Shown here in pieces: positions 2,676-21,934 of a stretch of 30,447 bases of DNA. This DNA comes from a virus, in IMG/VR virus record IMGVR_UViG_3300042861_000168, positions 1 to 30,447 of that record; one strand, 5' to 3'. Below the pieces are notes generated by a model. The model searched no databases. It was not told where the DNA came from and saw only the letters and a list, made by a program, of their open reading frames with translations. Within the stretch, counting starts at the first letter, position 1, and each line of letters opens with the position of its first letter. Position numbers and translations under genes: made by a program.

Positions 2676-3173
2676 ATGAAAGACGCTATTCTTAAAGAAC
2701 TATTTGAGAATAAGGAGATATACAGAGTAGCAAAGAAATATTGCAACTACGATAATCTTCATGGCGACCTTATCTCCGAACTATACATAACGCTACAAAA
2801 TAAAGAGGATGCTTTCTTTGAACGATTAGATAAAAAGCAGTTATTTCTTTATTGTTGTGGCATTTTGTATTTTAGCTGGAATAGTCCAACAAGTCCATTT
2901 TACAAAAAGTATAGAGCATTTCAGTATAGCGAGTTAAAAGGGTTTGACTTAGCTAATACAGAAGAGGATAAAGATACTTTTTGTGTAGCCTATTGGATAG
3001 ATAAGATTAATAAGAATAGCACAATAACAGATAATAACAGCTTAGTAAAGGTAAGAGTATTCGAGAAGTATATGGAGTTAAAATCATACCGTAAAGTAGG
3101 TGCAGAGTTTAATATCCCATTTAAGACAGTAGAGTACATAGTTAAAATGTTTGTAAACGATATTAAAGAATGA
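2676..3173 (+). CDS. small sigma-factor-like / HTH regulator
   Basis: A 165-aa protein with a plausible but divergent two-domain sigma layout. Residues ~10-42 (ENKEIYRVAKKYCNYDNLHG then DLISELYITL) resemble a sigma region 2 entry helix with its acidic DLxxE motif. Residues ~128-160 (FEKYMELKSYRKVGAEFNIP then FKTVEYIVKMF) form a helix-turn-helix like region 4 (SYRKVGAEFNIPFKTVEYIV). The middle is aromatic-rich and unlike standard region 2. It is in an early-type unit behind the host-type promoter at 2274 and overlaps the next gene by ATGA at 3170. I infer that it may redirect RNA polymerase to the distinct late motifs in this window. It could instead be a generic phage HTH protein that does not bind polymerase. 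Confidence 0.5.
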   Translation: MKDAILKELFENKEIYRVAKKYCNYDNLHGDLISELYITLQNKEDAFFERLDKKQLFLYCCGILYFSWNSPTSPFYKKYRAFQYSELKGFDLANTEEDKDTFCVAYWIDKINKNSTITDNNSLVKVRVFEKYMELKSYRKVGAEFNIPFKTVEYIVKMFVNDIKE

Positions 3174-4309
3174 AAAAAATCTTAGTAGTAACTTCGGAGC
3201 GAATAACTGGTTTAAATTACCACCGACAAATAACACCATTCTTTAATCTTAAAGGATTTGATATTGAGTATAAACGGTTTTTAACATCCGAAGAGGTTTT
3301 AGGCGGTTATTGTGATAACTTTGATTGTGTTAGCTTTTTAAGGTTAATCAATAAGCAAGGTAGAACGGATGAAATGGTAAATTACCTAAAGGCTAAAGGC
3401 ATTAAGATACATTTTGATATTGATGACTACTGGGTATTACCAAGTAACCACGCTTTATTTGAAGGATATAAAAAAGAAAAGATAGCGCAACAAGTAATAG
3501 AGGCTTTAAAAAGTGCTGACTTTGTAACTACTACAACTGATAAACTTGCACAAGTAATTAGACAGCATAATAAGAATATTTATGTACTTCCAAACGCAAT
3601 AGACCCAACACATGAGCAATGGACAAACGCAACACTACCAAGTGATAAGGTAAGATTTGGATATATTGCAGGAGTACACCATGAAAAAGACGCTGAAATA
3701 CTTTACGATAATCTAAACCTGTTATACTTTGAAAAGGAGTTAAAAGGCAAATATCAGATTTGTGCCGCCGGATTTAACATTAGTAAGCATGGCGACAAAC
3801 ACTACGTTAATCCTTATTACCAGTACTTAGAGCAATTGTTTACGAATAACTATAAACACTTACTTAAAGAATATGAGGACTATTTAATGCAGTATATCCC
3901 CGATAATAACTACGATTGGGATGAGATTTATAGAAGATTGTGGGGATTAGATACGGTAAATTATGGCAAGTCTTATAACTTTATTGATGTAAGTTTAATA
4001 CCATTGAGAGAAACATTGTTTAGTAGTTGTAAAAGTCAGTTAAAGGTTATTGAGGCGGGCTTTATGAAAAAGGCGTGTATAGTATCAAATGTACAACCTT
4101 ATACACTTGATTGTAATAGTGATAATAGTATATTGATTGAACCGAATAGAAACGGTAGGGGATGGTATAAGGCTATGAAAAAGCTAATTGAAAATCCTAA
4201 TATGCTATCGGACTTAGGCGAGGCTATGTATGAAACAGTAAAGGATAGATATCACATTGAAACGGTAAATGTAGTTAGAAAACAAATATTTGAACAATGG
4301 CTAAAATAG
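3170..4309 (+). CDS. glycosyltransferase, GT4/GT-B-like
   Basis: A 379-aa cytoplasmic protein with a GT-B-like layout. The N-terminal half has FDIDDYW (82-88), a motif common in phage and cell-surface glycosyltransferases of this type, then ADFVTTTTDKLA (116-127) and VLPNAIDP (139-146), the usual boundary before the C-terminal Rossmann half. That half starts GYIAGVHHEKD (164-174). SLIPLRETLFSSCKSQLKVIEAGFMKKACI (275-304) corresponds to the sugar-nucleotide-binding E-x(6-7)-E region of GT4 enzymes. There is no membrane segment. It opens the sugar-transfer cassette, overlapping the sigma-like gene (ATGA) and the next gene by 13 bp. Donor and acceptor cannot be read from sequence. Confidence 0.8.
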   Translation: MKKILVVTSERITGLNYHRQITPFFNLKGFDIEYKRFLTSEEVLGGYCDNFDCVSFLRLINKQGRTDEMVNYLKAKGIKIHFDIDDYWVLPSNHALFEGYKKEKIAQQVIEALKSADFVTTTTDKLAQVIRQHNKNIYVLPNAIDPTHEQWTNATLPSDKVRFGYIAGVHHEKDAEILYDNLNLLYFEKELKGKYQICAAGFNISKHGDKHYVNPYYQYLEQLFTNNYKHLLKEYEDYLMQYIPDNNYDWDEIYRRLWGLDTVNYGKSYNFIDVSLIPLRETLFSSCKSQLKVIEAGFMKKACIVSNVQPYTLDCNSDNSILIEPNRNGRGWYKAMKKLIENPNMLSDLGEAMYETVKDRYHIETVNVVRKQIFEQWLK

Positions 4310-4953
4310 GAATTGGCGTGACTACTTTCCGTAGACCTGAGATGCTACAAAAGTGTTTAGATAGCATTAGAAAGCATACGTTTATGGATGGAGTAACTAT
4401 CTATGTAGCAGACGATAGTAACGAGCGTAAAGGTGTTGCCTATCGTAAAAACGAATGTTTAAGAGCGTTAAAGGATTGTGATTATATTTTTTTACTGGAT
4501 GATGATGTAGAGATTATAAAAGATGGATGGATTGAGTTTTTTGTAGATGGGTATAAATCGACTTCTGTTAATCATTTTCTATATTTAAACTCAACTCATA
4601 ATATGTATGATAAAAGAGTATTTGCAAGTAAGTATGGAGTATTTACTGTTGGGCATTATAAAGATTGTGGTGGAGTATTTATGTTTATGACAAAAGGATG
4701 CGTAGAAAAAGTTGGTGCATTTAATGAAATTTTTTGTATGTGGGGTTTTGAACACGCTGAATGGAGTATGAGGGCTTGTAATGGGAATAGAAATTTTAAT
4801 ATGTTAGAAGGGACTGAAAATTATATCTACTCCGAAGATTACAGTAACCCTAATCATAAAAGCAGTATAACAAATGAAGAAAAAAATTTGTTATTTAAAA
4901 AAAACTTTCCTAAATTTGCCAAAGGAATAAAATCTATATATTTACCATTATGA
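4297..4953 (+). CDS. glycosyltransferase, GT2/GT-A-like (1)
   Basis: A 218-aa GT-A-fold enzyme. IGIGVTTFRRPEMLQKCLDS (4-23) is the typical GT2 nucleotide-binding start, IYVADDSN (35-42) the next strand, and FLLDDDVEI (65-73) the metal-binding DxD loop. GGVFMF (125-130) and GFEHAEWSMR (150-159) match the acceptor loop and the [ED]D-like catalytic base region. No transmembrane helix is present, so it probably acts on a soluble acceptor or a nucleotide- or lipid-linked sugar at the membrane surface. It is coupled on both sides (13-bp overlap upstream, ATGA downstream). Confidence 0.82.
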   Translation: MAKIGIGVTTFRRPEMLQKCLDSIRKHTFMDGVTIYVADDSNERKGVAYRKNECLRALKDCDYIFLLDDDVEIIKDGWIEFFVDGYKSTSVNHFLYLNSTHNMYDKRVFASKYGVFTVGHYKDCGGVFMFMTKGCVEKVGAFNEIFCMWGFEHAEWSMRACNGNRNFNMLEGTENYIYSEDYSNPNHKSSITNEEKNLLFKKNFPKFAKGIKSIYLPL

Positions 4954-5672
4954 GTTTACGTTTGTTATTTAAGTACACCACACGCTCAAGGCGTTCTAAC
5001 TTTCTAAGAGGCATTGATAGTATTATTGATAACCTTGCAGATAAAGAGAATTATCATATCTATACTACATTTGATGTGGATGACGATAAGATGCGTCCAT
5101 TACCTGAGATAAAAGGAAACCATACATACATAGCAGGAACGAGCAAATCGAAAGTAGATGCTATCAATAGGGACATGGATTTTATCAATGCTAATTATGA
5201 CTGGGATATACTTGTCAATATGAGTGATGATGTGGTGATAACTGAGAAAGGTTTTGATAATATTATTAGGTATTATTTTAATAGTTTAGTTCGTTCGGAA
5301 TCTATGTCAGGTTTTGAGAATACACCCTTTATAGAATTTGTATCAAATGAAGTAGTAAATTTAGACCAAGTAATTCACTTTCCAGATGGAAATAGAGATG
5401 ACCTTTTAACCGTTTCAATTATAGGTAAAGACTATTACAAACGAGATAACTACATTTACAATCCTGAATATAAGAGTTTGTATTGTGATAACGAAGCTAT
5501 GGAAGTAGCAAAGCAAAGAGGTTGTTACAAGTTTGTTAATAAAGTAATATTCAATCATTTGCACCCTGCTTATAACAAGGGTATATTTGACGCACAATAT
5601 CAACATACTGAGAGTTTTGGACATGAAGATTATCAAACATATAAAAGACGCAAAGCAAATGGATTCAGTTAA
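4950..5672 (+). CDS. putative glycosyltransferase, GT-A-like (2)
   Basis: A 240-aa protein starting LRLLFKYTTRSRRSNFLRGI, with an alternating strand/helix pattern like the GT-A fold. ILVNMSDDVVI (87-97) supplies the DD metal-binding loop, and FDVDDDKMRPL (41-51) the earlier acidic loop. The second half (YNPEYKSLYCDNEAMEVAKQ..HLHPAYNKG) resembles the acceptor-side region of phage GT2-like proteins that end in a conserved His-Pro. It starts within an ATGA overlap and ends 14 bp inside the next gene. Assignment is weaker than for the preceding enzyme but supported by context. Confidence 0.68.
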   Translation: MSLRLLFKYTTRSRRSNFLRGIDSIIDNLADKENYHIYTTFDVDDDKMRPLPEIKGNHTYIAGTSKSKVDAINRDMDFINANYDWDILVNMSDDVVITEKGFDNIIRYYFNSLVRSESMSGFENTPFIEFVSNEVVNLDQVIHFPDGNRDDLLTVSIIGKDYYKRDNYIYNPEYKSLYCDNEAMEVAKQRGCYKFVNKVIFNHLHPAYNKGIFDAQYQHTESFGHEDYQTYKRRKANGFS

Positions 5673-6234
5673 GTTATCAATATTAATCCCATCCACTCAT
5701 AGCAGAATGGATATGACCATGAAGCTAACAGATAGATTGTTAGACCAAATAGAATTTAACGATTTAGTAGGAGTAGTTGAAGTTGTTACGCTTTGGGATG
5801 ATGGGGCTAAAAGTATAGGCACTAAAAGAAACGAACTTATCCAAATGGCGAAAGGGGATTACGTTTGCTTTGTTGATTCGGATGATGATATTAGTAGCGA
5901 CTACGTTGAACGATTAATGGAAGGGATTAACTTAGGTGTAGACTGTTGTAGCCTAAAAGGTTGTATCACTTGGGATGGAAAGAATCCTGAGATATTTGAA
6001 CACTCACTAAGATATAGCGAGTATAAAACAACTGAGAACCCTATTAAGTACGAACGATTCCCGAACCATTTGAACTGTATTAAAAAGAGTTTAGTATTTG
6101 ATATTAAATATCCTGAAATATCACATGGCGAAGATACGGATTGGGCAACCCAAGTATTTAAAGCTGGTGTATTAAAGACAGAACATTATATTGATTCAGT
6201 TATTTACCATTATAAATTTATTACGAACAAATGA
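5659..6234 (+). CDS. glycosyltransferase, GT2/GT-A-like (3)
   Basis: A 191-aa enzyme starting at the ATG that puts KLSILIPST at residues 5-13, the normal GT2 beginning. An ATG at 5623 or the TTG at 5587 would extend it but would deepen the overlap with the upstream gene to 50-86 bp. KRNELIQMAKGDYVCFVDSDDD (56-77) is a textbook donor-binding stretch with the DxD at 73-77; HGEDTDWATQVFKAG is the catalytic-base region near the C-terminus. There is no membrane anchor. It overlaps its upstream neighbour by 14 bp and the next by ATGA. Confidence 0.8.
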   Translation: MDSVKLSILIPSTHSRMDMTMKLTDRLLDQIEFNDLVGVVEVVTLWDDGAKSIGTKRNELIQMAKGDYVCFVDSDDDISSDYVERLMEGINLGVDCCSLKGCITWDGKNPEIFEHSLRYSEYKTTENPIKYERFPNHLNCIKKSLVFDIKYPEISHGEDTDWATQVFKAGVLKTEHYIDSVIYHYKFITNK

Positions 6235-7073
6235 AAGGCGCAATAAGTTATAGTCTATTTGGTTACGATAGAGAACGAGCGGATAACTGTTTTGACTTTA
6301 ATAGCTATCTTCGTGGTTTAGCTATCAATATTCGTATGGCTCGTTTAATTTATCCTGAGTGGGATATAATTGTACAAACTGACAAAGCAACCTATGAGGC
6401 ATGGAAAGAGTTATTTGGTGCTTATCCTATTAAGTTAGAAGTACACCAAGACCTAGTGCCATTAACATTAGCAATGTTATGGAGGCTAAGACCATGCTTT
6501 GATAATAACTATACTCATGTTCTTTGTAGAGATTTAGATAGCCCTTTAACTTATAGAGAACGTCAAGCGGTAGAGTACTGGATTAACAGAGATAAGGCAG
6601 CACACGCAATAACTGATAGCGTAAGCCATGATGTGCCAATGCTTGGTGGTATGATTGGCTTTAGACCTCAATACTTTAGAGATAAGGTAGGAGTAAGTAC
6701 ATGGGGGGACTTGATAAGAATTAGACCTAACTACCTTTGGAATCAAAAAGGGAGCGACCAGACCTTTCTAAGAGATATAGTTTATCCTAAGTTTGCGCAA
6801 CAAGGGACTGATAGTATTACTCAGCACTATGTTTTAGGGATGCCGAATAGCTTTTTAAGTGATTACCATAATAAGATACAAGATTTAGAACTACCTATAC
6901 CTTTTGAGTTAAAGGAGAGTAACGATACTTGTGGACATATTGGAAGTGCTGGGGCTTATAATGTGGCGTTAGAAAAATTCCTTAGGAAGTATCACGATAA
7001 ATTTGTAGATTTGCATTCAGCAGAAGAATCCTATAAAGATATATTTTATTGGAGATTAAATAATGAATTTTAA
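6231..7073 (+). CDS. putative glycosyltransferase with DxD motif (4)
   Basis: A 280-aa protein beginning MKGAISYSLFGYDRERADNC. It contains THVLCRDLDSPLTYRER (95-111): a hydrophobic strand ending in a DxD motif (D101-L-D103), as in nucleotide-sugar-dependent transferases of the GT8/GT32-like group. MLGGMIGFRPQYF (137-149) and GSDQTFLRDIVYPKF look like acceptor-site and C-terminal catalytic segments, and LGMPNSFL with HIGSAGA follow. No membrane segment. The length and DxD position fit a complete enzyme. It begins in an ATGA overlap and is followed directly by a 58-aa ORF. Confidence 0.72.
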   Translation: MKGAISYSLFGYDRERADNCFDFNSYLRGLAINIRMARLIYPEWDIIVQTDKATYEAWKELFGAYPIKLEVHQDLVPLTLAMLWRLRPCFDNNYTHVLCRDLDSPLTYRERQAVEYWINRDKAAHAITDSVSHDVPMLGGMIGFRPQYFRDKVGVSTWGDLIRIRPNYLWNQKGSDQTFLRDIVYPKFAQQGTDSITQHYVLGMPNSFLSDYHNKIQDLELPIPFELKESNDTCGHIGSAGAYNVALEKFLRKYHDKFVDLHSAEESYKDIFYWRLNNEF

Positions 7074-7250
7074 ATGAACGGAACTGTAATAGATATTGAT
7101 GGCTTGTCGGTTAAAGTTATCCCTATTGATTTAGAGGATAGCACCGACAAAGCACATCTACTTCAAATAACAGATGGACACAAAATAATAACTTTAAGCA
7201 TATCATATGGCAGAATCACAGATGAAACGGTACATAGTTGTAAGCACTAA
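7074..7250 (+). CDS. small ORF inside the sugar cassette, 58 aa
   Basis: Its ATG follows the upstream stop codon with no gap (TAA-ATG). The product starts MNGTVIDIDGLSVKVIPIDL and ends with HSCKH; it overlaps the next gene by 44 bp in another frame. The repeated short strands (TVIDIDGLSVKVIPI; ITDGHKIITLSI) suggest a compact beta fold. No family recognised. Perfect stop-start spacing favours real translation; the long overlap with the next gene argues for caution. Confidence 0.45.
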   Translation: MNGTVIDIDGLSVKVIPIDLEDSTDKAHLLQITDGHKIITLSISYGRITDETVHSCKH

Positions 7251-7953
7251 CAACAACTCCGATTATTATTTTTACCTACCTTACATTGAAAAGGCATGGA
7301 ATAGTTATGGATGGGATTTAGTTGTAATGATTACAGATGACGTAGACGTAAAAACACTAAAGACTAACAACCCGAATACATTAATTTGTAGGTTACCAAA
7401 CATTGAAGGAGTACGCAAAGAAAGTATTGCACAAGCTGGTAGGTTATACGCTGCTAATTATATAATTGGTAACGATTTAATTATGACAAGTGATATGGAT
7501 TTATTACCTTTGTCTAATTACTGGAATCCTAATGTATTTGATGTAACAGTTTACGGACACGACTTAACAGACTTTACTTATTATCCAATGGGATATACTG
7601 CAATGAGAGCAGAAGATTGGCGACACTTTATGAAGCTAACAAACGATACTAAAGCAGATTTAGAACGTGATTGTAACGAGTATGCCTACATGGTTAAGTC
7701 AGATGAATGGGAGCAATGGTGGAACTTTGATTGGCGAATGTTAACAGACCGTTTAACACACGCTAAAATAGTTCACAAACATAGAGGGCGACAAAGTAAC
7801 GGCTTTGCTTATGGTAGGATTGATAGGGGGAATAGCTTACAGTTAATAGAAAAACCTTGGATTGATTTACATGGAGAAAATAATAATGTTATGCATCCTG
7901 ACAAACTTAATAAATTTATAACCTTATTTGAATCAGTACATGGAAAACTTTAG
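7207..7953 (+). CDS. putative glycosyltransferase with DxD motif (5)
   Basis: A 248-aa protein (an ATG at 7222, giving MKRYIVVSTNN, is an equally good start). It begins with a Rossmann-like strand YIVVSTNNN, followed by WDLVVMITDDVDV and by NDLIMTSDMDLLPL (89-102), where D96-M-D98 is the metal/nucleotide-sugar motif. The later YGHD..YYPMGYTAMRAEDW and HKHRGRQSNG segments suit an acceptor site. No transmembrane helix. The 14-bp overlap with the next gene keeps it in the same operon. Confidence 0.7.
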   Translation: MAESQMKRYIVVSTNNNSDYYFYLPYIEKAWNSYGWDLVVMITDDVDVKTLKTNNPNTLICRLPNIEGVRKESIAQAGRLYAANYIIGNDLIMTSDMDLLPLSNYWNPNVFDVTVYGHDLTDFTYYPMGYTAMRAEDWRHFMKLTNDTKADLERDCNEYAYMVKSDEWEQWWNFDWRMLTDRLTHAKIVHKHRGRQSNGFAYGRIDRGNSLQLIEKPWIDLHGENNNVMHPDKLNKFITLFESVHGKL

Positions 7954-8497
7954 AGCAAAATTTACACCACCGAATAACGACCACAGTTACTATCCTTTAC
8001 TTTACTTAGCATTACAAACAACTAAGCAAGGTGGAGTAATTGAGATGGGAACGGGACATGGTAGCACCAAACTATTACATGACTATTGTTTAGTTAAAGG
8101 ACGTAACCTATATTCGTATGATGAAAAAGAAGAGTGGGGGTCTAAGTTCTACGATTTAAGAACCGATAAACATTTAGTAGAAGTAGTAAGTGACTGGGAT
8201 AGTGTTTGTTATACTCATAAAGATAGTGATGTTAGTGTAGTATTTATAGACCATGCGCCAGGTGAAAGACGCAAAGAAGATATATTAAACTTTAAAGATA
8301 TTAACGGTATATTAGTATGCCACGATACAGAGCCAGCAGCCGACTATGGTTATCAAATGCGCCAACACTTTAGTAAGTTCAAATACGTTGTAGAGGTGCA
8401 AACTAACGGAGCATGGGCAACAGCATTAAGCAATACAATTGATATTACTAAATGGGATGGGCAGAAATTTAGCGAATATGTATGCACAAAAGACTAA
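7940..8497 (+). CDS. class I SAM-dependent methyltransferase (Methyltransf_24-like)
   Basis: A 185-aa enzyme read from the ATG at 7940 (a TTG start at 7928 would add four residues). GGVIEMGTGHGSTKLL (31-46) is AdoMet motif I. LYSYDEKEEW (57-66) ends the second strand with an acidic residue. VSVVFIDHAPGERRKED (98-114) corresponds to the motif IV region with D104, and ILVCHDTEPAADYG (124-137) to the catalytic region seen in Methyltransf_24 proteins that cluster with glycosyltransferases. By context I infer methylation of a glycan or of the glycosylated target, not of DNA. The first late-type promoter motif overlaps its 3' end. Confidence 0.72.
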   Translation: MENFRAKFTPPNNDHSYYPLLYLALQTTKQGGVIEMGTGHGSTKLLHDYCLVKGRNLYSYDEKEEWGSKFYDLRTDKHLVEVVSDWDSVCYTHKDSDVSVVFIDHAPGERRKEDILNFKDINGILVCHDTEPAADYGYQMRQHFSKFKYVVEVQTNGAWATALSNTIDITKWDGQKFSEYVCTKD

Positions 8498-8512: not shown

Positions 8513-8722
8513 ATGACTAAAGAGCAATACGAAGAGGCAAATAAGTATCGAGGGATATTAGAACTATTCAATAAGACTGGAGAGTATGTAGGTGGAATAG
8601 GAAACCTTATTCAGTATTTAGAACCAAGTACTAATACTTCGTGTCCATCTTGCATGAGTGCCTTTTTAATAACGACTTACAATAGAATGTTAGAATATGA
8701 ACGGAATATGCAGAGTATGTGA
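8513..8722 (+). CDS. small hypothetical protein, 69 aa
   Basis: A 69-residue, largely helical ORF (KEQYEEANKYRGILELFNK) with one CPSC pair (44-47) and a charged C-terminus. Its ATG touches the late-type promoter box, so either it is translated leaderless or transcription serves mainly the genes behind it. It overlaps the zinc-ribbon ORF at 8697 by 26 bp. Similar short proteins with a single CxxC precede terminases in Bacteroidetes phages, but I know no function. Confidence 0.6.
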   Translation: MTKEQYEEANKYRGILELFNKTGEYVGGIGNLIQYLEPSTNTSCPSCMSAFLITTYNRMLEYERNMQSM

Positions 8723-8864
8723 GTTAATAGATAACGATACAACACTTAAAGAGGTAGAGTATTGCGAACTATGTAAAGCAAATATATGTAACGAATGTAA
8801 ACCAAACCTACTTAAAAGAGGTAAAGCAGCAATAAAAGAACAAATGGCTAAACTTTATAGATAA
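8697..8864 (+). CDS. six-cysteine zinc-ribbon-like small protein, 55 aa
   Basis: Read from the ATG at 8697, this gives 55 residues with three CxxC pairs: C5-x2-C8, C23-x2-C26 and C31-x2-C34 (ICRVC, YCELC, ICNEC). The last two are spaced like a compact zinc finger. A basic tail follows (KPNLLKRGKAAIKEQMAKLYR). It overlaps the upstream ORF by 26 bp and shares one base with the next start (TAATG), typical of coupled phage genes. A nucleic-acid-binding or adaptor role before the terminase is likely but not proven. Confidence 0.65.
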   Translation: MNGICRVCELIDNDTTLKEVEYCELCKANICNECKPNLLKRGKAAIKEQMAKLYR

Positions 8865-9154
8865 TGACTTTAGAAGAATACGAACAAGGGATTACACCTA
8901 CCGACTTTCTCTCAAGGCAACGCTTTGTTAAGAGTCAAGGATATAGTGGAACGCCTAAATTGGTACTTAACGAACTACTAAAAGGTAAGACGTTTACTAA
9001 GAAAGAGTTAGACGAATACAAATACACCTCAGTTAGTAGACTAATATACGAGATTAAGTTATTAGGTTACGAGGTTATAAAATACAAACAAACAGCCTTT
9101 AATAAGGCTTATACTAAATACAGATTACATTCTAAACATTTAAGCAATGGCTAA
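8864..9154 (+). CDS. putative winged-helix DNA-binding protein, 96 aa
   Basis: A 96-aa basic protein. Residues ~35-75 (LNELLKGKTFTKKELDEYKY..SVSRLIYEIKLLGYEVIKY) read as a winged helix: helix, turn, recognition helix (SVSRLIYEIKLL), then a beta wing (YEVIKYKQTAFNKAYTKYRL). It starts in a TAATG overlap and its 3' end overlaps the terminase small subunit by 8 bp. It may assist packaging-site recognition or regulate the late unit; the sequence alone cannot decide. Confidence 0.6.
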   Translation: MTLEEYEQGITPTDFLSRQRFVKSQGYSGTPKLVLNELLKGKTFTKKELDEYKYTSVSRLIYEIKLLGYEVIKYKQTAFNKAYTKYRLHSKHLSNG

Positions 9155-9551
9155 AGCCGATATAGATTTTAAGAAGTTATTAGGAGGCAGACCAGCTATA
9201 TTCGAAACTCCAGAAGATATGTCTAAGGCTATTCAATTATACTTTGAAAGCACTAAGAACAACTCAGGAAAATACAGACCTACTATTGAGGGAATGGTAT
9301 TTCATATAGGATTAGGGTCAAGACAATCACTTAAGCAATATGCTGATAGAGAGGGGTTTAATGACGTGGTTAAGGCTGCGAAGTCTTTTATCAAGTCTTG
9401 TTATGAAGAAAACCTTTATGGGTTCGCTTGGGCTGGTGCTTCATTTGCTTTAAGAAACATTGGTAAAGAGGACTGGAAAGATGAGATTACCGAGAATAGC
9501 AACCAAATAATAACTAAAGTAGAGATAGTTGAAAAGAAACGAGATGAATGA
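9147..9551 (+). CDS. terS: terminase small subunit
   Basis: A 134-aa protein with the arrangement of gp3-type DNA-packaging small subunits. GGRPAIFETPEDMSKAIQLY (13-32) leads into the N-terminal helical DNA-binding domain; PTIEGMVFHIGLGSRQSLKQYADREGF supplies its HTH-like helices; a helical oligomerisation region (DVVKAAKSFIKSCYEENLYG then FAWAGASFALRNIG) follows; and there is a charged tail. Its position immediately before the large subunit (ATGA overlap at 9548) confirms the role: recognising phage DNA and feeding it to the motor. Confidence 0.85.
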   Translation: MAKADIDFKKLLGGRPAIFETPEDMSKAIQLYFESTKNNSGKYRPTIEGMVFHIGLGSRQSLKQYADREGFNDVVKAAKSFIKSCYEENLYGFAWAGASFALRNIGKEDWKDEITENSNQIITKVEIVEKKRDE

Positions 9552-10747
9552 AGTTAGAAACCACACCAGTATTTACGCAAAACTATGGTTCTGAAAAGAA
9601 GATAGTAATTAATAGAGGTGGTACACGTTCAAGTAAAACCGTTTCAGTAGTTCAGCAATGTGTATTGTGGCTTATTAGTGGTCAGCTTACACGAGATACA
9701 TATATTCCTAAAGGCGTTTGGAGTACTGTCAGAAAGTACTCAACTACATTAGACGCAACAGTTATTCGAGATTTTGAAGAAGAACTAAACAAGCATAAGA
9801 TATTTAACCTTATCCAACACAATAAGACTAAAAAGACTTATAAGTATGGAGATAGGTTAGTGGAGTTTATTGGAGCAGATGACGAGCAAAAGCTAAGAGG
9901 TGCTAAAAGGAATATACTTTACTGTAATGAGGGCAACGAGTTAGACTTTAAAAAAGAGTTCTTTCAGTTGCTTATGAGAACTGAGGATAAGGTTATTATA
10001 GATTTCAACCCTGACGATGAGAACATTTGGATTAACACAGAGTTAGAACAAAAGAGGTTATTTGAGAAAGGCGATGTTGATGTTATTGTTTCCACCTATA
10101 AAGATAATACCTTTTTACCTAAAAGTTTAGTAAGTGAGATTGAGTACTTAGAAAAGACCGACCCTGAATTTTGGAAGATATACGGATTAGGGCAGTATGG
10201 CAAGTTGTTTGGTTTAATATTCGAGGACTATAAAGTAGTAGATAAGATACCTGATACAGCAACACTAATTGCATACGGTCAGGATTTCGGATTTACTAAT
10301 GACCCTTCAGCAATGGTAGGTGTATGGAAACAAGATGGGGAGTTATGGATTAAGGAGTTAATATACCAACGAGGATTAACAAACCAAGACTTAGCTATCA
10401 AGTATAGAGATTTAGGCATTCAATCGCATGAAGAAATAATAGCCGATAGCGCAGAGCCTAAAAGCATTCAGGAGTTAACTAACCAACAATTTAGAGTTAA
10501 TGGAGCAGAAAAAGGAGCGGATAGTATAAAAAACTCAATAGATATATTAAAACGCTATAAACTAAATATAACGCAAGATAGTTCTAACTTGATAAAAGAG
10601 TTAAGAACTTATAAATGGATGCTTGATAAGACAGGAAACAGTATAAATAAACCAGTAGATTATAACAACCATGCTATTGATGCTATTAGATATGTAGCAC
10701 TTAATAAGTTAGGGCATAATAATAATGGCGTTTACCACATAGCATAA
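9548..10747 (+). CDS. terL: terminase large subunit
   Basis: A 399-aa packaging ATPase/nuclease. The Walker A-like loop is GGTRSSKT (24-31) and the Walker B region ILYCNEGNE (123-131). FFQLLMRTEDKVIIDFNPD (138-156) is the coupling region common in Terminase_3-type enzymes. The RNase H-like nuclease domain has its three acidic residues at D246 (YGQDFGFTNDPS), D300 (IIADSAEP) and D378 (HAIDAIRY). Length and motif order are complete. The enzyme drives DNA into the prohead through the portal (22367) and cuts the concatemer. The gene ends just before late-type promoter copy 2. Confidence 0.95.
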   Translation: MKLETTPVFTQNYGSEKKIVINRGGTRSSKTVSVVQQCVLWLISGQLTRDTYIPKGVWSTVRKYSTTLDATVIRDFEEELNKHKIFNLIQHNKTKKTYKYGDRLVEFIGADDEQKLRGAKRNILYCNEGNELDFKKEFFQLLMRTEDKVIIDFNPDDENIWINTELEQKRLFEKGDVDVIVSTYKDNTFLPKSLVSEIEYLEKTDPEFWKIYGLGQYGKLFGLIFEDYKVVDKIPDTATLIAYGQDFGFTNDPSAMVGVWKQDGELWIKELIYQRGLTNQDLAIKYRDLGIQSHEEIIADSAEPKSIQELTNQQFRVNGAEKGADSIKNSIDILKRYKLNITQDSSNLIKELRTYKWMLDKTGNSINKPVDYNNHAIDAIRYVALNKLGHNNNGVYHIA

Positions 10748-10752
10748 TTCTT

Positions 10753-10783
10753 TTGCACAAATGACTTACTTTTATATATAATA
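10753..10783 (+). promoter_or_regulatory. late-type promoter motif, copy 2 (tail operon)
   Basis: TTGCACA at 10753-10759, 13 nt, TATATATAATA at 10773-10783, then GT and the ATG at 10786. Read as -35/-10 hexamers, TTGCAC and TATAAT are 18 nt apart. It lies in the 38-bp gap between the terminase and the tail genes. Confidence 0.65.
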
Positions 10784-10785
10784 GT

Positions 10786-11391
10786 ATGAAAGTTAAAGTA
10801 CCTAAAGGGTGGAATGAAGTAACCCTAAAACAATTTTACAACTTACAAGAGGCTGTCGGAATGGATTTTACGGATGGATTGGAACGTATTACAGCGTACC
10901 TATCCGCTTTGACGTTTATTCCTATCAGTTATTGGACTGAGCAAGCAAGTACTATTGAGTTAAGAGATGCAATAGGGAAGCTAAAGTTTATTAATACTAT
11001 TAGTGAGAATCCAGTTAAGGCAAACGTAAAGATTAATGGACGCAGATTTCATGTAGACTTAATACTGAGGGATAGCATAGCAAGTACGTTTATTGACTTA
11101 GCTACATTATGTAAGGATAAGGAGCAACTAAAGTTAAAGTACCACGAAGTATTGGCAGTATTCTTTTATGAGGTTAATGTGTTTGGATTTAGAAAAAAGA
11201 GAACAGTAAACAGTCAAAAAGAGATAGCAGAGTTTTTAAAAGAACATTGCACAATGGATTTAGCATTTAGTTATGCTGGTTTTTTTTTAAGCAGTTATCA
11301 GAGATTATTGAAAGGTACAAAAGACTATTTGGACAAGGAGATAATGAAACAGAGCAAGAGGGTACAAAAGGAACTAAACCGACTTTCGTAG
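10786..11391 (+). CDS. tail assembly chaperone, zero-frame product (gpG-like)
   Basis: A 201-aa protein starting MKVKVPKGWNEVTLKQFYNL, mostly helical. I assign the tail assembly chaperone role from three facts: position at the head of the tail operon upstream of the tape measure; a perfect slippery heptamer near the 3' end (11283-11289); and a -1 reading frame open from 11271 to 11564 that would make a longer fusion. In siphophages such as lambda, G and GT are produced this way, coat the tape measure before tube polymerisation and are absent from the virion. Sequence similarity to gpG itself is not visible to me. Confidence 0.7.
   Translation: MKVKVPKGWNEVTLKQFYNLQEAVGMDFTDGLERITAYLSALTFIPISYWTEQASTIELRDAIGKLKFINTISENPVKANVKINGRRFHVDLILRDSIASTFIDLATLCKDKEQLKLKYHEVLAVFFYEVNVFGFRKKRTVNSQKEIAEFLKEHCTMDLAFSYAGFFLSSYQRLLKGTKDYLDKEIMKQSKRVQKELNRLS
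11283..11289 (+). promoter_or_regulatory. programmed -1 frameshift slippery site T TTT TTA
   Basis: In the zero frame the codons are GGT TTT TTT TTA AGC (11278-11292), giving the heptamer T TTT TTA at 11283-11289, the U UUU UUA type that works in HIV-1 and in phage chaperones. A slip after TTT TTT would read AAG CAG TTA onward and remain open for 91 codons. I did not identify a stimulatory structure downstream. Confidence 0.75.
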
Positions 11392-11564
11392 AATATTGGG
11401 GATGGTATTACACCTTAGATAACATAAGCGGAAACGATAGGACTAAATGGGAGTATTTTTTGAATATGAATGTTATTGAGTTCTTAAATACGTTGGCTTA
11501 CTATAAAGATAAGCAGGGATATATTGAAGAGCAATTAGAACAACAAAGACGTGGCAGTAGGTAA
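11289..11564 (+). CDS. tail assembly chaperone, -1 frame extension (gpT-like part)
   Basis: After slippage the -1 frame codes for 91 residues starting KQLSEIIERYKRLFGQGDNE and ending QQRRGSR, giving a fusion of about 259 aa. The frame is bounded upstream by a stop at 11268-11270 and has no own ATG before 11466, so it is not a normal separate gene. Its aromatic-rich core (FVEYWGWYYTLDN; KWEYFLNMNVIEFL) looks like folded protein rather than noise and resembles small phage proteins that follow chaperones. It fills what would otherwise be a 159-bp gap and overlaps the next gene's GTG by 14 bp. In lambda the T part binds the tape measure and tail tube subunits. Confidence 0.68.
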   Translation, partial: KQLSEIIERYKRLFGQGDNETEQEGTKGTKPTFVEYWGWYYTLDNISGNDRTKWEYFLNMNVIEFLNTLAYYKDKQGYIEEQLEQQRRGSR

Positions 11565-12108
11565 AACACCTTATCAGATATTAGAAGTTTACGCACAAAG
11601 GATAAGTGATTCTTTGAGAGAAAGTTTAGTTAAGAACGATAGATATGTTAGTGGTGGGTTAGCTAAAAGCATTGAGGCAAGAGTTAAGGTATTTGGGCAA
11701 AGTATTAACATTCAAGTTTACATGGCTGATTATTGGAAGTTTGTGGATGAGGGAGTAAACGGAACTAAAGTAAAGCATGGTAGTCCATATAGTTTTAAGA
11801 AAAAGAATGTAAATAAAGATGCTATGTTAAAACACATAGCTAACAGAGGGAGTAGATTTGCTCCAATGTGGAAAGATATACAAAACAACTATACCAATAA
11901 GAAAGGATTAAAAGTTAAACGAAAAAAGCCTTTGGATGCTCAAGTGTCGAGAAACTCTTTAGCTTTCTTACTTGGTAGAAGTATATCGAAAAAAGGATTT
12001 AAGGGAACTGGATTTGTATCAGAGGGGGTGCAAGGTATTAAAGACGATTTAGAGAAAGATTTATTAGAGGCAGTTGGAAGAGAGATAGAAGTACAATTTT
12101 TAACATAA
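11551..12108 (+). CDS. HK97 gp10-like head-tail/tail completion protein
   Basis: A 185-aa basic protein with a GTG start at 11551 (no ATG fits near it). The opening helices (YQILEVYAQRISDSLRESLV), the SGGLAKSIEARV segment, and MADYWKFVDEGVNGTKVKHG are typical of HK97-gp10/minor tail proteins, where Y/W-x-x-xVDEG is a recurring feature. GRSISKKGFKGTGFVSEG and a helical C-terminus also match. Such proteins cap or complete the tail end that joins the head. It overlaps the frameshift extension by 14 bp. Confidence 0.65.
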   Translation: MAVGKTPYQILEVYAQRISDSLRESLVKNDRYVSGGLAKSIEARVKVFGQSINIQVYMADYWKFVDEGVNGTKVKHGSPYSFKKKNVNKDAMLKHIANRGSRFAPMWKDIQNNYTNKKGLKVKRKKPLDAQVSRNSLAFLLGRSISKKGFKGTGFVSEGVQGIKDDLEKDLLEAVGREIEVQFLT

Positions 12109-12114
12109 GATTAA

Positions 12115-13341
12115 ATGGCAATAACAATACAACAAGATATTACTGGATATAGACCAGCGTATAACGATGATTTCTACGTGGTATCTTCAACAGCAGTGAC
12201 ACAACCTAACTTTCAATACATAGCAGACCTTTACGTTAATGGTAATTATGTAACGAGGTTAAAGACGTTTCCACACCCTACTTATGGTACTGGCTTGTTC
12301 AATCCTAAAAGAAACATTGAGAACTATGTTACTAAAGATTTCGATTTAGCTACTAATAATTTTGCCACAAATGATAATAGCTTTTGTTACTATCAATTAA
12401 AGTTTGGGGAGCAGTACGGTACAAGTGGAACTATCTATGCTGGCTTAACTAATACAGCTACTAAGTATGTATGGAACTCTATTTTTGATTATGAAGATTA
12501 CATTTCTTTTGATGATACACCGTACATATTAGCTAATAGCAATACACAATTCTTAACTAATGCACCTGACAATTTAAAGATACAAAGTACTGAAAGGAAT
12601 TACCTATACGGTATTACAGATACAAGTGGGGATATTTACTATATGAACATAACCACGTTCGATAGTGCAGGAGCGCAAATAGATAGTTACAAGTTATATA
12701 ATCAGTACCAAAATGTAAGCACCGATGCAAGGAAGTTCTTTAGAGTAGGAGTAGGAACATACAACTTTAATGACATTTCAAGTGGGGATTATACTTATAG
12801 TGAGTTTGGTAACTTTCCAGTAATAGGGAGTAACGTGGCAAGTTATAATATCCAAATGAGTAAGCAAGATGGAACGGTAACAAGTGAAACACGAACTTAC
12901 TTTGTAGAGGACGTATGTACTAAGACTGAGGCTCAAAGAATATTCTTTTTGAATAAGTTAGGCGGTTACGATGCTTTAACCTTTAAGAATAAGACTAAGA
13001 TAAATGCAGATATAACACGAAGTAACTTTAAGAAGCCACAAGGCAATTGGATTAAGTCAAATAGTTTTGCATACGGTCAAAGTGATAGAGCAGTAACGCA
13101 ATACGATACTAATATTAAAGATACTATTACTATTGTTAGTGATTGGTTAACTGAGGCTCAAAGCGAATGGATAGAGGAGTTATTTACAAGTCCAGATGTT
13201 TACTTAGATAGAGGTGGAGTTGAGATTCCAATAAACATAACAGCAAGTAGTTATGAAACAAAACAAACTGCTGTTGCTAAGTTAATCAATTACACATTAG
13301 AGTATACTTATTCATATAGTAGATATAGACAAAGGTTTTAA
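12115..13341 (+). CDS. distal tail/baseplate protein (putative)
   Basis: A 408-aa, beta-rich protein starting MAITIQQDITGYRPAYND. The C-terminal third includes FFLNKLGGYDALTFKN and later DTITIVSDWLTEAQSEWIEELFTSPDVYL, a pattern I associate with Bacteroidetes phage tail proteins encoded between the chaperone and the large tip protein. No enzymatic motif is visible. Its stop shares a base with the ATG of the next gene. A Dit-like or tip-hub role is inferred from order alone. Confidence 0.6.
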   Translation: MAITIQQDITGYRPAYNDDFYVVSSTAVTQPNFQYIADLYVNGNYVTRLKTFPHPTYGTGLFNPKRNIENYVTKDFDLATNNFATNDNSFCYYQLKFGEQYGTSGTIYAGLTNTATKYVWNSIFDYEDYISFDDTPYILANSNTQFLTNAPDNLKIQSTERNYLYGITDTSGDIYYMNITTFDSAGAQIDSYKLYNQYQNVSTDARKFFRVGVGTYNFNDISSGDYTYSEFGNFPVIGSNVASYNIQMSKQDGTVTSETRTYFVEDVCTKTEAQRIFFLNKLGGYDALTFKNKTKINADITRSNFKKPQGNWIKSNSFAYGQSDRAVTQYDTNIKDTITIVSDWLTEAQSEWIEELFTSPDVYLDRGGVEIPINITASSYETKQTAVAKLINYTLEYTYSYSRYRQRF

Positions 13342-16118
13342 TGAGAACACGAATTGAATTAGGTAGTAGTGGGGATATAGAGTTATTTGAGGCAATAAGT
13401 ACGCCTCTTACTTTCTCTATTGCAGATATTAGAACACCCGAAACAAGACAAGGGGCTTTTAGTAAGACTATAACTATTCCCGGCAGCAAACAAAACAATA
13501 AGCTGTTAGGGCATATCTTTGATATTAACGTAGGGGATTGTACATTCAATCCTAAGTTAAAAACACCTGCAAGATTATTTATTAACGATGTACCACAGTT
13601 AAGTGGGTTTATGCAGTTGTTAAAAATAAAGAAGTTAGATAACTATAAAATAGAGTATGAGGTTGCCTTGTTTGGTAAGAACTCAAATATCTTTATTGAT
13701 ATTGGCGATAGTCTTTTAACTGACTTAGATTACTCGGAGTTAAACCATAACTACCAAAGAGATGAGCAGGTAGATAGCTGGACGCAAGATTATACCTATG
13801 GTTATGTTTATCCGTTAATTGATTATGGCTTTGATGCAGATATTAATAGTTATGATACTGAGCATTTATTCCCTGCAACGTATTTAAGGACTTATATTGA
13901 TAAGATATTTACCAATGCTGGATATAGCTACCAAAGTAGTTTTTTTGATAGTGCCTTCTTTAAGAAGTTAATCATACCAGCAACAGGTACAAAGATAGGA
14001 TTAAGTTCAGCACAGATTGACGCAAGGATATTTAATGCTTATGATAATACATTAAGAACGTATGCAGGGCCAGTTGCAGGAGGTAATACTGGTGGGAGTG
14101 TCCAACAGTTAACTATTGCAAATGAAACAAACGACCCCAGCAACCAATTTAACACTGGGACTTACATAGCTACAATAGCTAATAGTGGATATTATAATTT
14201 ATACAGTACTTTAGAATTTTATATTGAGGTTACAAGTTCAGTAACATATCCTACTTCTTCTCCAAGAGTTGGTATTTGGATAGAAAGAAAACCGAATGGA
14301 AGTTCATTTTGGAATGCAATAAATAGCAACTATTTAGATACTGGATTTTTCCCTTCAAGTAGTGGTGATATATCGAGTACTTATTCTTTGTATTGCTCTC
14401 TTGGCAATACTTTCTTATCACAAGGCGACCAGTTAAGGCTAAGAACTTATGGCAGTTTCTCAGGACTTGGTGGGTTTTCATTTGATATAAAAGCAAGTGG
14501 AGTAGTATTTGAGAATAGCGTAGTGAATAGCGGTTTAGTAGAGGGCAACACATTAGACTATAACCAAGCTATACCACAAAACATAAAGCAAAAAGAGTTA
14601 TTAACTTCTGTTATTAAGGCTTTCAATCTTTACATTGATGTAGATAACGATAACGATAAATTGCTATTGATTGAAACGAGGGACGATTTTTATGCAGATG
14701 GAACGGTAAAGGATTGGAGTAAGAAATTAGATATATCAAAAGATATTGAGTATACTCCATTAGGGGATTTAGATTTCAGAAAGTTTAAGTACTCTTATAA
14801 AAAAGATACTGATAACTATAATAAGAAGTACGAAGATAATTGGAAAGAGGTATACGGTCAATTAGTTTATGACAATGGCAACGAGTTTTTAAGTAATGAG
14901 AATAAGACAGAATTAATCTTTAGCCCTACGCCGCTATGTGATGACGTGAGTAGTGATAGAGTAGTAAGTAGGATTTGGGATGTACAAAGTAACGGTACTA
15001 TAAAACCTAAAGCATTTAACATACGATTACTTTATTATGGTGGATTAATTAGTACTAATGTAGATTGGATTCATACTGCAAGAGGTGGAGCAGATGTAGT
15101 TAGAAGTACTTATCCTTTTGCTGGACACGTAGATAGTCCTACTGCTCCTACATTGGACCTTAACTTTGGGGTCCCAAGAGAGATTTATTATAGAGCAAGT
15201 ACTTATACTGCTAACAACTTATTCAATACCTACTATTCAAAGTTTATAAACGAGATTACGGATAAAGATAGTAAGATAGTAACTGCTTACTTTCACTTAA
15301 CACCGTTGGACATACTTACGCTTGATTTTAGAAACGAATTTTACTTCGATAATCAAAGGTTCAGATTAAACAAGATATACGATTATAATCCAATTGTAAA
15401 CGAATTAACTAAATGTGAGTTTGTAAAGTTAAAAGAGGCTAACAGATATTCGGGACTGATAGGGCTACCAGTAAACGGAGCGGGATTAAGTAGTGGTGAT
15501 ATTCAGTTACTGCCGAGTTTTGGCGATGACGTTTTAAATGCTCAAGGTAATAATACTCCGAATACTCCAATAGGTAACGATAATACTTATGGTAATGGTG
15601 GACGTAACGTATTAGTTAATGGAGGGAATAACTATGTACACGATTACGTTGATGGAGTTACGCTTCTTAATAGTAGTGGTGATACTGTTTATGCAGGATT
15701 AAGAAATGTAACGCTAATAAACACTAATGATGTAGAAATAACAAGCGGAGATGTAGTAGCTATAAATGGAGTTGTTTATCCAAAAATTTTTAATCAATAT
15801 TCAACTGTTTTAAATGTACCATCGTCTACTAAAACTTATAATTTAGGAGTAGTGGGTGGGTTGTTATTAGTTGAAACTGGTGCAACCAATACGGCTATAA
15901 ATTTACCGAGTGCAAGTAGTATTTATGTATACGATAATACTTATGGCTATGCTTTTGGTAAGATAATTAACATTAAAAAAGTAGATAATGGAATAGGTAA
16001 TGTTGTTATTAATCCGAATGGTAGCGAAACAATAGATGGACAATTAACACAAACATTATATACGCAATACGACAATATATCAATACAGAGTGATGGAACT
16101 AACTGGCATATAATATAA
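13341..16118 (+). CDS. large tail tip/baseplate protein with C-terminal fibre-like module
   Basis: A 925-aa protein. The N-terminal part (SIADIRTPETRQGAFSKTIT, 26-45, then IPGSKQNNKLLGHIF) is the signature of a Bacteroidetes phage tip protein I have seen annotated as tail-associated. The central ~400 residues are beta-rich and also include IDYGFD and LYIDVDNDNDKLLLIETRDDFY. From about 690 it changes to repetitive Gly/Asn-rich sequence (NTPNTPIGNDNTYGNGGRN), then a terminal beta module (VINPNGSETIDGQ..TLYTQYDNISIQSDGTNWHII) common at the ends of phage fibre proteins. It probably forms the tail tip and initiates receptor contact. There is no clear peptidase or hydrolase motif. Confidence 0.7.
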   Translation: MRTRIELGSSGDIELFEAISTPLTFSIADIRTPETRQGAFSKTITIPGSKQNNKLLGHIFDINVGDCTFNPKLKTPARLFINDVPQLSGFMQLLKIKKLDNYKIEYEVALFGKNSNIFIDIGDSLLTDLDYSELNHNYQRDEQVDSWTQDYTYGYVYPLIDYGFDADINSYDTEHLFPATYLRTYIDKIFTNAGYSYQSSFFDSAFFKKLIIPATGTKIGLSSAQIDARIFNAYDNTLRTYAGPVAGGNTGGSVQQLTIANETNDPSNQFNTGTYIATIANSGYYNLYSTLEFYIEVTSSVTYPTSSPRVGIWIERKPNGSSFWNAINSNYLDTGFFPSSSGDISSTYSLYCSLGNTFLSQGDQLRLRTYGSFSGLGGFSFDIKASGVVFENSVVNSGLVEGNTLDYNQAIPQNIKQKELLTSVIKAFNLYIDVDNDNDKLLLIETRDDFYADGTVKDWSKKLDISKDIEYTPLGDLDFRKFKYSYKKDTDNYNKKYEDNWKEVYGQLVYDNGNEFLSNENKTELIFSPTPLCDDVSSDRVVSRIWDVQSNGTIKPKAFNIRLLYYGGLISTNVDWIHTARGGADVVRSTYPFAGHVDSPTAPTLDLNFGVPREIYYRASTYTANNLFNTYYSKFINEITDKDSKIVTAYFHLTPLDILTLDFRNEFYFDNQRFRLNKIYDYNPIVNELTKCEFVKLKEANRYSGLIGLPVNGAGLSSGDIQLLPSFGDDVLNAQGNNTPNTPIGNDNTYGNGGRNVLVNGGNNYVHDYVDGVTLLNSSGDTVYAGLRNVTLINTNDVEITSGDVVAINGVVYPKIFNQYSTVLNVPSSTKTYNLGVVGGLLLVETGATNTAINLPSASSIYVYDNTYGYAFGKIINIKKVDNGIGNVVINPNGSETIDGQLTQTLYTQYDNISIQSDGTNWHII

Positions 16119-17282
16119 ATGAGTTATTTTAGATACCCTAATAATAGAATAGTATTTGTTGATAATACAAATGATTTTCCAGCACCTATTGGTGGAGTGA
16201 TAACGCTTGATGACGAGGTTACATATTTTATATGCAAAGAAGTAGACATTTTAGGCGATAGGCTTGTTTGTGGAGAGAACACAACTATTATAGGAGGTAG
16301 TTCTGAAAATTGCAGATTAAAGTCAACTGGATTGGTAGGCACTGCTTTAATAACTTCTATTTATTCTTTGCCTATTAGAAATATAACAATAGAGGCTGAT
16401 GTAGCTTTAGATTTGCAAGGCGATGGAGTAAATACTGCATTAGATTGGTTTGGAGTTAATTTTACTGATTGTAATTCAGTTGGATATATAAAAGATTACT
16501 CTAACTTTATTATGGCAGATAGTGCTTTTCTTAACTCTGGAAAATTAACATTTGATGGAACTATTGGAACAGTTGGATTAGACCAGTGTTTATTTGATTG
16601 TAATGCAAGTGGTACTATATTTATTTTACCATCGACATTAACTATAACAAGACGTTTTAGAGCAATTTATTCATCATTTATTATCGGTAGTGGAGAAACG
16701 GGATTGGATGTAGATGTAAGTGCTACTATACCAACGGAGGGGTATATTTTAGATACCATTAACTTTAGTGGTGCTGGTACTTATTTAACTGGATTAGACC
16801 ATACAAGTAATGATGCTTTATTTATTAACTGCAAAGGAATAACTAATAGTGCTGTTAATGGGCAGTTGTATATGCAAGGGAACGCAACAGCAACAACCGT
16901 TACTCTACAAAATACATTCTATAAGATAGCAGGTACAACAACTGCGAGTGCTGATAATTCAAAGTTTAGCCATTCAAATAATAGGCTTACTTGTGATGCA
17001 GTAATTAGTAGAAAATATTTAATACAATGTTATTTATCATTTACTGCTGGCAATGGTAATGTATGTGAGTTTGGTTTTTATGATAGTCAATTATCGGCAG
17101 TTAGAACTCCAAGTAAAACTAAGTCAACGGCTAATGCAAGTGGTAGAGCAGAGAATATAGGATTTGCTTGTGTAGTAACTATGGGTTTAGGCGATTATTT
17201 AGAAATACACTGTTCTAATACTTCCGCATCAACAAACATTACAGTAGACAATATGAACTTTGTAATAACAGAAATAAAGTAA
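16119..17282 (+). CDS. tail spike/fibre: beta-helix with C1q/TNF-like jelly-roll end
   Basis: A 387-aa protein directly after the tip gene. Residues ~20-240 have the short repeated strands of a right-handed beta-helix (GENTTIIGG; NITIEADVALDLQGDG; FLNSGKLTFDGT; DALFINCKGI). The C-terminal ~140 residues switch to a jelly-roll pattern: YLIQCYLSFTAGNGNVCEFG, then GLGDYLEIHCSNTS and VDNMNFVITEI, as in C1q/TNF-like trimer heads of phage adhesins. The beta-helix shows no obvious catalytic site, so it is more likely a receptor binder than a depolymerase. Confidence 0.68.
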   Translation: MSYFRYPNNRIVFVDNTNDFPAPIGGVITLDDEVTYFICKEVDILGDRLVCGENTTIIGGSSENCRLKSTGLVGTALITSIYSLPIRNITIEADVALDLQGDGVNTALDWFGVNFTDCNSVGYIKDYSNFIMADSAFLNSGKLTFDGTIGTVGLDQCLFDCNASGTIFILPSTLTITRRFRAIYSSFIIGSGETGLDVDVSATIPTEGYILDTINFSGAGTYLTGLDHTSNDALFINCKGITNSAVNGQLYMQGNATATTVTLQNTFYKIAGTTTASADNSKFSHSNNRLTCDAVISRKYLIQCYLSFTAGNGNVCEFGFYDSQLSAVRTPSKTKSTANASGRAENIGFACVVTMGLGDYLEIHCSNTSASTNITVDNMNFVITEIK

Positions 17283-17283
17283 A

Positions 17284-19002: not shown

Positions 19003-19030
19003 CACACTATAACTAAATAAATATATAATA
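19000..19030 (+). promoter_or_regulatory. late-type promoter motif, copy 3 (protease)
   Basis: TAGCACA at 19000-19006 (one mismatch), 13 nt, AATATATAATA at 19020-19030 (one mismatch), then GT and the ATG at 19033. It occupies most of the 30-bp gap after the tape measure gene. Confidence 0.55.
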
Positions 19031-19032
19031 GT

Positions 19033-19626
19033 ATGGAAAAGGTATTACCAATTTATAGGCTAACTATAAAAGATGAAGACGATAAAATGGGGGTTAACTA
19101 CGTTGCTCTTGTTGACGAACCAGCAATTCAAACTAATTGGCTAGCATTTAACGGACAAATGAAGTTCGCAATGGATAAGGAGCGCAAGATTATTACTGGT
19201 GCTTTGATGTTAGCAGACTTACCAATATATCGTAGAAGCGAAAAGATGGGAGAGTTTTACGTTGTGTTTGATAAATTCCAAATTGAAAAGATAGTACAAA
19301 GGTTCATGAAAAACGGTTTTACCGATAACGTAAACAAGATGCACGATGCTAAACAAACCGTTGATGGAGTTTATATGTACGAATCATTTATTGTTGATTA
19401 TCAAAGAGGTATAAGACCACCAGTAGGATTTGAAGATGCACCTGAGGGTAGTTGGTTTGGAAGTTACAAAGTAGATAACGAGGACGTATGGAATAACTTT
19501 ATTAAGACTGGCGAATTTAAAGGATTTAGTGTAGAGGGAGTGTTTGATTTAGTACCCGAAGGAGATGCAAAGGAAAAAGATATTATGAAACAGATAGTAG
19601 ATATTATCGCCTCTATAACTGAATAA
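19033..19626 (+). CDS. prohead protease, XkdF-like (S78-related)
   Basis: A 197-aa protein starting MEKVLPIYRLTIKDEDDKMG. The segment YVALVDEPAIQTNWLAF, then KERKIITGALMLADLPIYRR, MHDAKQTVDGVYMYESFIVD, and FIKTGEFKGFSVEGVFDL is the pattern of XkdF-like putative serine proteases in phage head modules: the conserved His in the MHD segment and the Ser in GFSVEG are the likely catalytic residues. It would cleave scaffold and capsid precursors during prohead maturation, consistent with its place just before scaffold and capsid. It has its own late-type promoter. Confidence 0.8.
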   Translation: MEKVLPIYRLTIKDEDDKMGVNYVALVDEPAIQTNWLAFNGQMKFAMDKERKIITGALMLADLPIYRRSEKMGEFYVVFDKFQIEKIVQRFMKNGFTDNVNKMHDAKQTVDGVYMYESFIVDYQRGIRPPVGFEDAPEGSWFGSYKVDNEDVWNNFIKTGEFKGFSVEGVFDLVPEGDAKEKDIMKQIVDIIASITE

Positions 19627-19627
19627 G

Positions 19628-19658
19628 TTGCACACTACTATTAAAAGTATATATAATT
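19628..19658 (+). promoter_or_regulatory. late-type promoter motif, copy 4 (scaffold/capsid)
   Basis: TTGCACA at 19628-19634, 13 nt, TATATATAATT at 19648-19658. Unlike the other copies, this one leaves 17 nt (TATAAATAACTTATAAAA) before the ATG at 19676, so its transcript could carry a short untranslated leader. It drives the genes with the highest expected demand. Confidence 0.65.
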
Positions 19659-19675
19659 ATAAATAACTTATAAAA

Positions 19676-20329: not shown

Positions 20330-20345
20330 AAAACACATTTAAAAC

Positions 20346-21305: not shown

Positions 21306-21314
21306 TTAACATAA

Positions 21315-21340
21315 GGGGGTTATTTCGGTAACCCCTTTTT
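21315..21340 (+). terminator. intrinsic terminator after the capsid gene
   Basis: GGGGTTA (21316-21322), loop TTTCGG, TAACCCC (21329-21335), then five T (21336-21340). It is placed 10 bases after the capsid stop. No promoter is visible before the next gene, so that gene depends on read-through. Confidence 0.85.
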
Positions 21341-21356
21341 AAAACTTTTATACAAC

Positions 21357-21878: not shown

Positions 21879-21904
21879 TTTTCATAGTTTTGGTTTTTAG
21901 GGAG

Positions 21905-21933: not shown

Positions 21934-21934
21934 A

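Follow-up and report, generated by a model that had tools for sequence, protein, structure and literature searches.

The window analysed here is the linear virus record IMGVR_UViG_3300042861_000168, a stretch of 30,447 bases, whose + strand carries at 3170–8497 a cassette of six glycosyltransferase (GT) genes, a 58-residue open reading frame (ORF; P58) and a methyltransferase gene (MT), set head to tail with overlaps between a sigma-like gene upstream and the terminase genes downstream (Table 1). All eight ORFs are in place, and at 5,328 of 30,447 bases the cassette takes up 17.5% of the window, in keeping with a sequence-only reading that had put it at over a sixth. The main point which that reading missed is that the cassette is fixed in a phage lineage and has a conserved core (GT1–GT4) and an exchangeable distal end, in which GT5, GT6 and MT are optional.

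Contig scans seeded with GT2, GT5 and GT6 returned dozens of contigs in which GT1-GT2-GT3-GT4-GT5-GT6-MT run in this order ahead of terminase and the same tail genes, and the arrangement is therefore not due to chance. Since samples seeded with GT genes are biased by the query, a second sample was drawn from a terminase profile scan, restricted to loci with at least 5.5 kb upstream (n=26, or n=21 after dropping near-identical terminases); terminases being swapped within the lineage, the clade sampled is that of L005, a close relative (loci of relatives carry L numbers), and not the window's own. The tail protein encoded by o12115 was tried as a lineage anchor and given up in favour of the terminase, its alignment being too divergent. 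At least three cassette genes are present in 23 of the 26 terminase-anchored loci and in 18/21 distinct ones, and GT1–GT4 lie directly upstream of packaging in 18 of the 21 distinct loci, which argues, in a sample free of the GT query bias, that the core travels with the morphogenesis block. Among the 19 distinct loci with GT1 in view, GT2, GT3 and GT4 were each found in 18, GT5 in eight, and GT6 and MT in six each; at L217, GT1 is retained beside two other ORFs that look GT-like by eye. GT1 stands next to GT2 in 54/59 cases and GT3 next to GT4 in 71/90. The cassette is a fixed trait of the lineage and not a stray accessory gene set.

The exchange of the distal end is best seen in L005, which shares 92–98% nucleotide identity with the window in most flanking genes, GT1 and GT3 (86% in tail gene o12115). 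In L005 the GT6-MT block after GT5 has given way to a further GT, an acyltransferase of the left-handed-helix (LbH) type and a Polysacc_synt_2 dehydratase, and from window position 8480 identity is back at 97.8%. The same slot holds in other relatives a GT11 fucosyltransferase, TylF and FkbM methyltransferases, a sulfotransferase, a WbqC-like protein, a GDP-mannose-dehydratase-like enzyme or a C-methyltransferase. As judged from these gene assignments, the distal repertoire is that of bacterial surface polysaccharide variation. The terminase genes are also swapped: window 9147–10747 has 67–69% nucleotide identity to L005:8122–9721 and to L002, between phages that are 92–98% identical on either side.

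Profiles and predicted folds bear out the earlier gene calls of a GT-B-like enzyme first, GT-A-like enzymes with acidic motifs next and an S-adenosylmethionine (SAM) methyltransferase last. GT1 matches the glycosyltransferase family phrog_7162 (E 5e-44) and aligns with phAPEC8 gp073 by hhalign (E 6e-38); the window protein falls below the Pfam threshold for group-1 GTs, while its relatives pass that of Glyco_trans_1_4. GT2 and GT4 both match PF00535 (Glycos_transf_2; 24.5 and 28 bits, respectively, against a cut-off of 23.3) as well as phrog_2456 (E 8e-33) and phrog_8858 (E 3e-40), with GT2 matches found in mycobacteriophages and phAPEC8-like phages. The sole profile match of GT3 is to phrog_14945 (E 9e-9). 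GT5 and GT6 gave no significant Pfam or PHROG match and were folded by AlphaFold, the alignments comprising 33 and 18 viral relatives, respectively (101 viral relatives of GT5 being found). The GT5 model (pLDDT 86) is similar by Foldseek to glycogenin, GlyE and LARGE1 (VIA Z about 12), and that of GT6 (pLDDT 90) to LgtC, glycogenin, KfiA and the blood-group transferases (VIA Z about 13). Their acidic motifs, CRDLDS and D-M-D, are invariant in the first alignments, and both proteins are predicted by these models to be Rossmann-like GT-A folds with DxD motifs. MT gives a sub-threshold match to Methyltransf_24, has an invariant G-x-G-x-G-S-T motif and further conserved IDHAPGERR and HDTEP motifs, and is a probable sugar O-methyltransferase. 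Searches of PDB sequences with GT3, GT5, GT6 and MT profiles returned no meaningful match, nor did GT6 or the tail protein at 13341–16118 match anything in the annotated phage collection.

P58 homologues are recognisable between GT5 and GT6 in other phages, keeping a few residues, among them STD, at identities down to about 20%. Against its nearest relatives P58 has 14 synonymous and 15 non-synonymous codon changes, a ratio far from the unconstrained expectation, which together with the homologues in place indicates a conserved gene under purifying selection. Three gene starts admit a choice. For GT4 we prefer the ATG at 5659, since the TTG at 5587 given in the ORF list adds 24 residues unseen in relatives; for MT the ATG at 7940 is preferred, the TTG at 7928 also being possible; and GT6 begins at 7207 or 7222.

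Table 1. Genes of the glycosylation cassette and its immediate flanks in the window.
Feature	Positions	Strand	Description	Part
sigma-70-region-2-like protein	2676..3173	+	directly upstream of GT1	
GT1	3170..4309	+	GT-B type (group-1/GT4-like) glycosyltransferase, 379 aa	core
GT2	4297..4953	+	GT-A family-2-like glycosyltransferase, 218 aa, DDD motif	core
GT3	4950..5672	+	GT-A-like glycosyltransferase, 240 aa, invariant SDD (alignment)	core
GT4	5659..6234	+	family-2 GT, 191 aa, homologous to Che8 gp108 N-terminal domain	core
GT5	6231..7073	+	GT-A fold like glycogenin/GlyE/LARGE1, 280 aa, invariant CRDLDS	distal
P58	7074..7250	+	conserved 58-aa small protein between GT5 and GT6	
GT6	7207..7953	+	GT-A fold like LgtC/glycogenin/blood-group GTs, 248 aa, invariant D-M-D	distal
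MT	7940..8497	+	SAM methyltransferase, 185 aa, probable sugar O-methyltransferase	distal
downstream boundary	8513..10747	+	two small conserved ORFs, third ORF, terminase small + large subunits	

The gene before GT1 is assigned to the sigma-70 region 2 type from its relatives, and it directly precedes GT1 in all cases detected (o2676-GT1, 19/19). In three loci the sigma-like domain and GT1 share one open frame (L018:8105–9760, L019:1086–2735 and L135:7666–9312), and the L135 fusion product passes the Pfam cut-offs for both Sigma70_r2 and Glyco_trans_1_4. This arrangement of the genes suggests that regulator and glycosylation genes would be co-expressed, perhaps at the switch to late genes. Further upstream, genes for a NinG-like protein, an HNH endonuclease and SSB precede the sigma-like gene, while the cassette is followed by small ORFs, terminase, tail genes, protease, capsid and portal. 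The gene order across 9147–24169 is unusual, with terminase, tail genes and tape measure, protease and capsid in succession and the portal last. In 69/139 cassette-bearing loci, typically between cassette and terminase (e.g. L026:10439–10708, L027:13825–14049 and L163:7955–8269), there is a gene for a small hydrophobic protein that carries the motif KPFxCxxCLxFW; the window lacks it. The product of 25971–27446 is predicted to be a lipoprotein (signal MKKLILSLIVLAFLGC), and by eye its C-terminal half resembles an SGNH hydrolase; a phage-encoded exported esterase beside the lysis gene would be unusual.

The hosts are likely Bacteroidota: the window terminase is nearest to those of faecal and Flavobacterium phages (36–37% identity), and GT3 relatives found in genomes span several phyla, Bacteroidota most often. 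The 360 kb L135 contig from a Bacteroidetes metagenome-assembled genome (MAG; NGFH01000005.1) carries GT1–GT4 together with more GT and methyltransferase genes and a terminase gene between flanks that look non-phage, and is probably a prophage remnant that has kept the cassette. A tyrosine integrase was found in one of 19 records of relatives, and by the available evidence the lineage is mostly lytic.

We propose that the cassette provides a glycosylation pathway that runs stepwise in the cytosol. GT1–GT4 would build a conserved oligosaccharide core, drawing on nucleotide sugars of the host; GT5 and GT6 would then lengthen it, and the methyltransferase would cap its end. The acceptor would most likely be a side chain of a structural protein that the phage makes in abundance, in the capsid or the tail, glycosylated before or during assembly, and the linkage of the cassette to packaging and its up to six GTs fit such an acceptor. 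Replacement of the distal enzymes among close relatives would change the exposed tip and leave the core constant, and the likely benefit would be altered binding to the particle by phage-binding proteins, by host or environmental glycans or lectins, or by antibodies where animals are present. Most simply read, the cassette lets the virus make a coat of sugars, probably for its own particle, which varies in the manner of a bacterial serotype.

The sequence-only reading had left virion proteins, host surface and DNA unranked as targets; the evidence points to a virion protein and speaks against DNA. The GT domain of gp108 of phage Che8 is a homologue of GT4 (BLASTP, 34% over 181 residues, E 4e-29), and the C-terminal half of gp108 is a TylF-like methyltransferase. 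The Che8 major capsid protein is described as glycosylated in the passage of PMC11256854 that cites Freeman et al. 2023, and a passage of PMC12619734 citing the same work places glycans of Mycobacterium phages on the C-termini of capsid and tail-tube proteins. Several points weigh on the other side. Neither the major capsid protein (20346–21305) nor the putative tube protein has an obvious Ser/Thr-rich C-terminal tail that could mark it as the acceptor, although the site need not be Ser/Thr-rich. Relatives of GT1 and GT2 also occur in phAPEC8-type myophages. The tie to Che8 is through GT4 only; pairing of GT2 with Che8 gp110 and of GT3 with gp109 was tried and rejected, neither giving a match. 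Two terminase-anchored loci (L160 and L213) lack the cassette. On balance we favour, by a modest margin over doubt, a cytosolic pathway, its core fixed and its tip exchangeable, whose target would be a phage protein, presumably of the virion. The fuller proposition is put forward tentatively: siphophages of a widespread lineage, with Bacteroidota as hosts, would make a glycan for their virions whose core is inherited and whose serotype-like tip can be exchanged, and would assemble it directly on a structural protein without a lipid carrier.

The glycan could instead be a precursor of the host envelope, modified during infection or lysogeny for receptor masking, superinfection exclusion or serotype conversion. 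We consider this unlikely, yet it is the alternative that survives best: in the PDB GT1 resembles only a PglA-type lipid-linked GT, and that weakly (E 0.013), the distal enzymes resemble O-antigen and capsule tailoring enzymes, the Bacteroidetes MAG contig looks like a prophage remnant with GT1–GT4 and terminase, and about half of the cassette loci encode the small KPFxCxxCLxFW membrane protein. However, that protein is missing from the window, the integrase is confined to the single record noted above, and the cassette enzymes are not membrane-embedded. No gtrA-gtrB-gtr-like unit was seen among the loci read, GtrA not having been searched for separately. Neither an initiating phosphoglycosyl transferase (PF02397, PglC/WcaJ-type) nor a Wzx-type flippase (PF13440) was found in 15 records of relatives, with controls positive, though host enzymes could substitute and the records may be fragments. 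The sequence-only reading had argued for a soluble acceptor from the lack of membrane segments; we likewise find no membrane-like segment in any cassette protein, but many lipid-linked GTs are peripheral, which makes that argument weak, and the absence of PglC/WcaJ- and Wzx-type genes from relatives supports the soluble acceptor better. Its proposal of host sugar donors stands for the window, which has no sugar-nucleotide synthesis gene, and holds less well for the relatives, some of which do carry such genes.

Another soluble acceptor, such as a tRNA base, a small molecule or a non-structural protein of host or phage, would accord with the lack of a recognised accepting site on virion proteins; up to six GTs, tailoring enzymes and linkage to the packaging block nevertheless exceed the needs of a single small-molecule modification, and we hold this possibility to be somewhat less probable still. 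Least probable is DNA hypermodification, in which the GTs would glycosylate modified bases and so block restriction: GT2 gives a sub-threshold match to the TET-associated glycosyltransferase (TAGT) family (19.5 against 27.5 bits) and weakly matches phrog_842, a beta-glucosyl-HMC-alpha-glucosyltransferase, whereas the thymidylate-synthase/hydroxymethylase family (PF00303, ThyA) is absent from 19 relatives' records, which may be fragments (control genomes positive), Tet_JBP gave no match (a weak negative, its control being silent), a terminus varied by acyl-, sulfo- and methyltransferases does not resemble known DNA-sugar systems, and the window opens at 5–436 with the end of an ordinary DNA methyltransferase.

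If the cassette glycosylates virions, an environmental phage lineage would permanently carry a multi-step glycosylation pathway whose tip varies like bacterial surface sugars. Phage particles would then be under serotype-like selection outside animals, with antigen-type variation on the particles themselves, which prompts one to ask what in water and sediment recognises phage particles. The pathway would also offer a soluble enzyme set for placing defined sugars on protein shells.

To our knowledge, virion glycosylation in tailed phages has been reported essentially from mycobacteriophages, where it shields the particles from antibodies. Among the closest known systems, that of Che8 (gp108–gp110) likewise has phage genes for soluble GTs arranged in tandem and accompanied by a methyltransferase activity, with gp108 homologous to GT4 in its GT domain. 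The cassette described here differs in its likely host phylum (Bacteroidota), in the number of GTs (4–7 or more, compared with three, of which one is homologous), in its fixed place beside packaging genes and in the swapping of its distal part between close relatives. In the Mycobacterium prophage prophiFSAT01-1 (gp45–gp46), a GT2 homologue (31%) precedes a methyltransferase, with the terminase genes a few genes further downstream, but this is a single annotated GT gene. In phAPEC8-type coliphages a tandem GT cluster (gp071–gp074) includes GT1 and GT2 homologues; those phages are large myophages in which the cluster lies beside replication genes, with no adjoining distal tailoring genes seen. 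T4 and TET phage DNA glycosyltransferases are also phage GTs, which GT2 resembles weakly through TAGT, whereas no base-hydroxymethylating enzyme was found in the relatives' records, which may be fragments. Bacterial O-antigen and capsule loci have the same conserved start and variable distal GTs, with sugar-nucleotide, acyl-, methyl- and sulfotransferase genes, while the phage cassette is tied to packaging genes and has no initiating lipid transferase or flippase that we could find. The cassette would be of a known kind, phage-encoded virion glycosylation, and the new part is the organisation into a fixed core and an exchangeable tip within one lineage.

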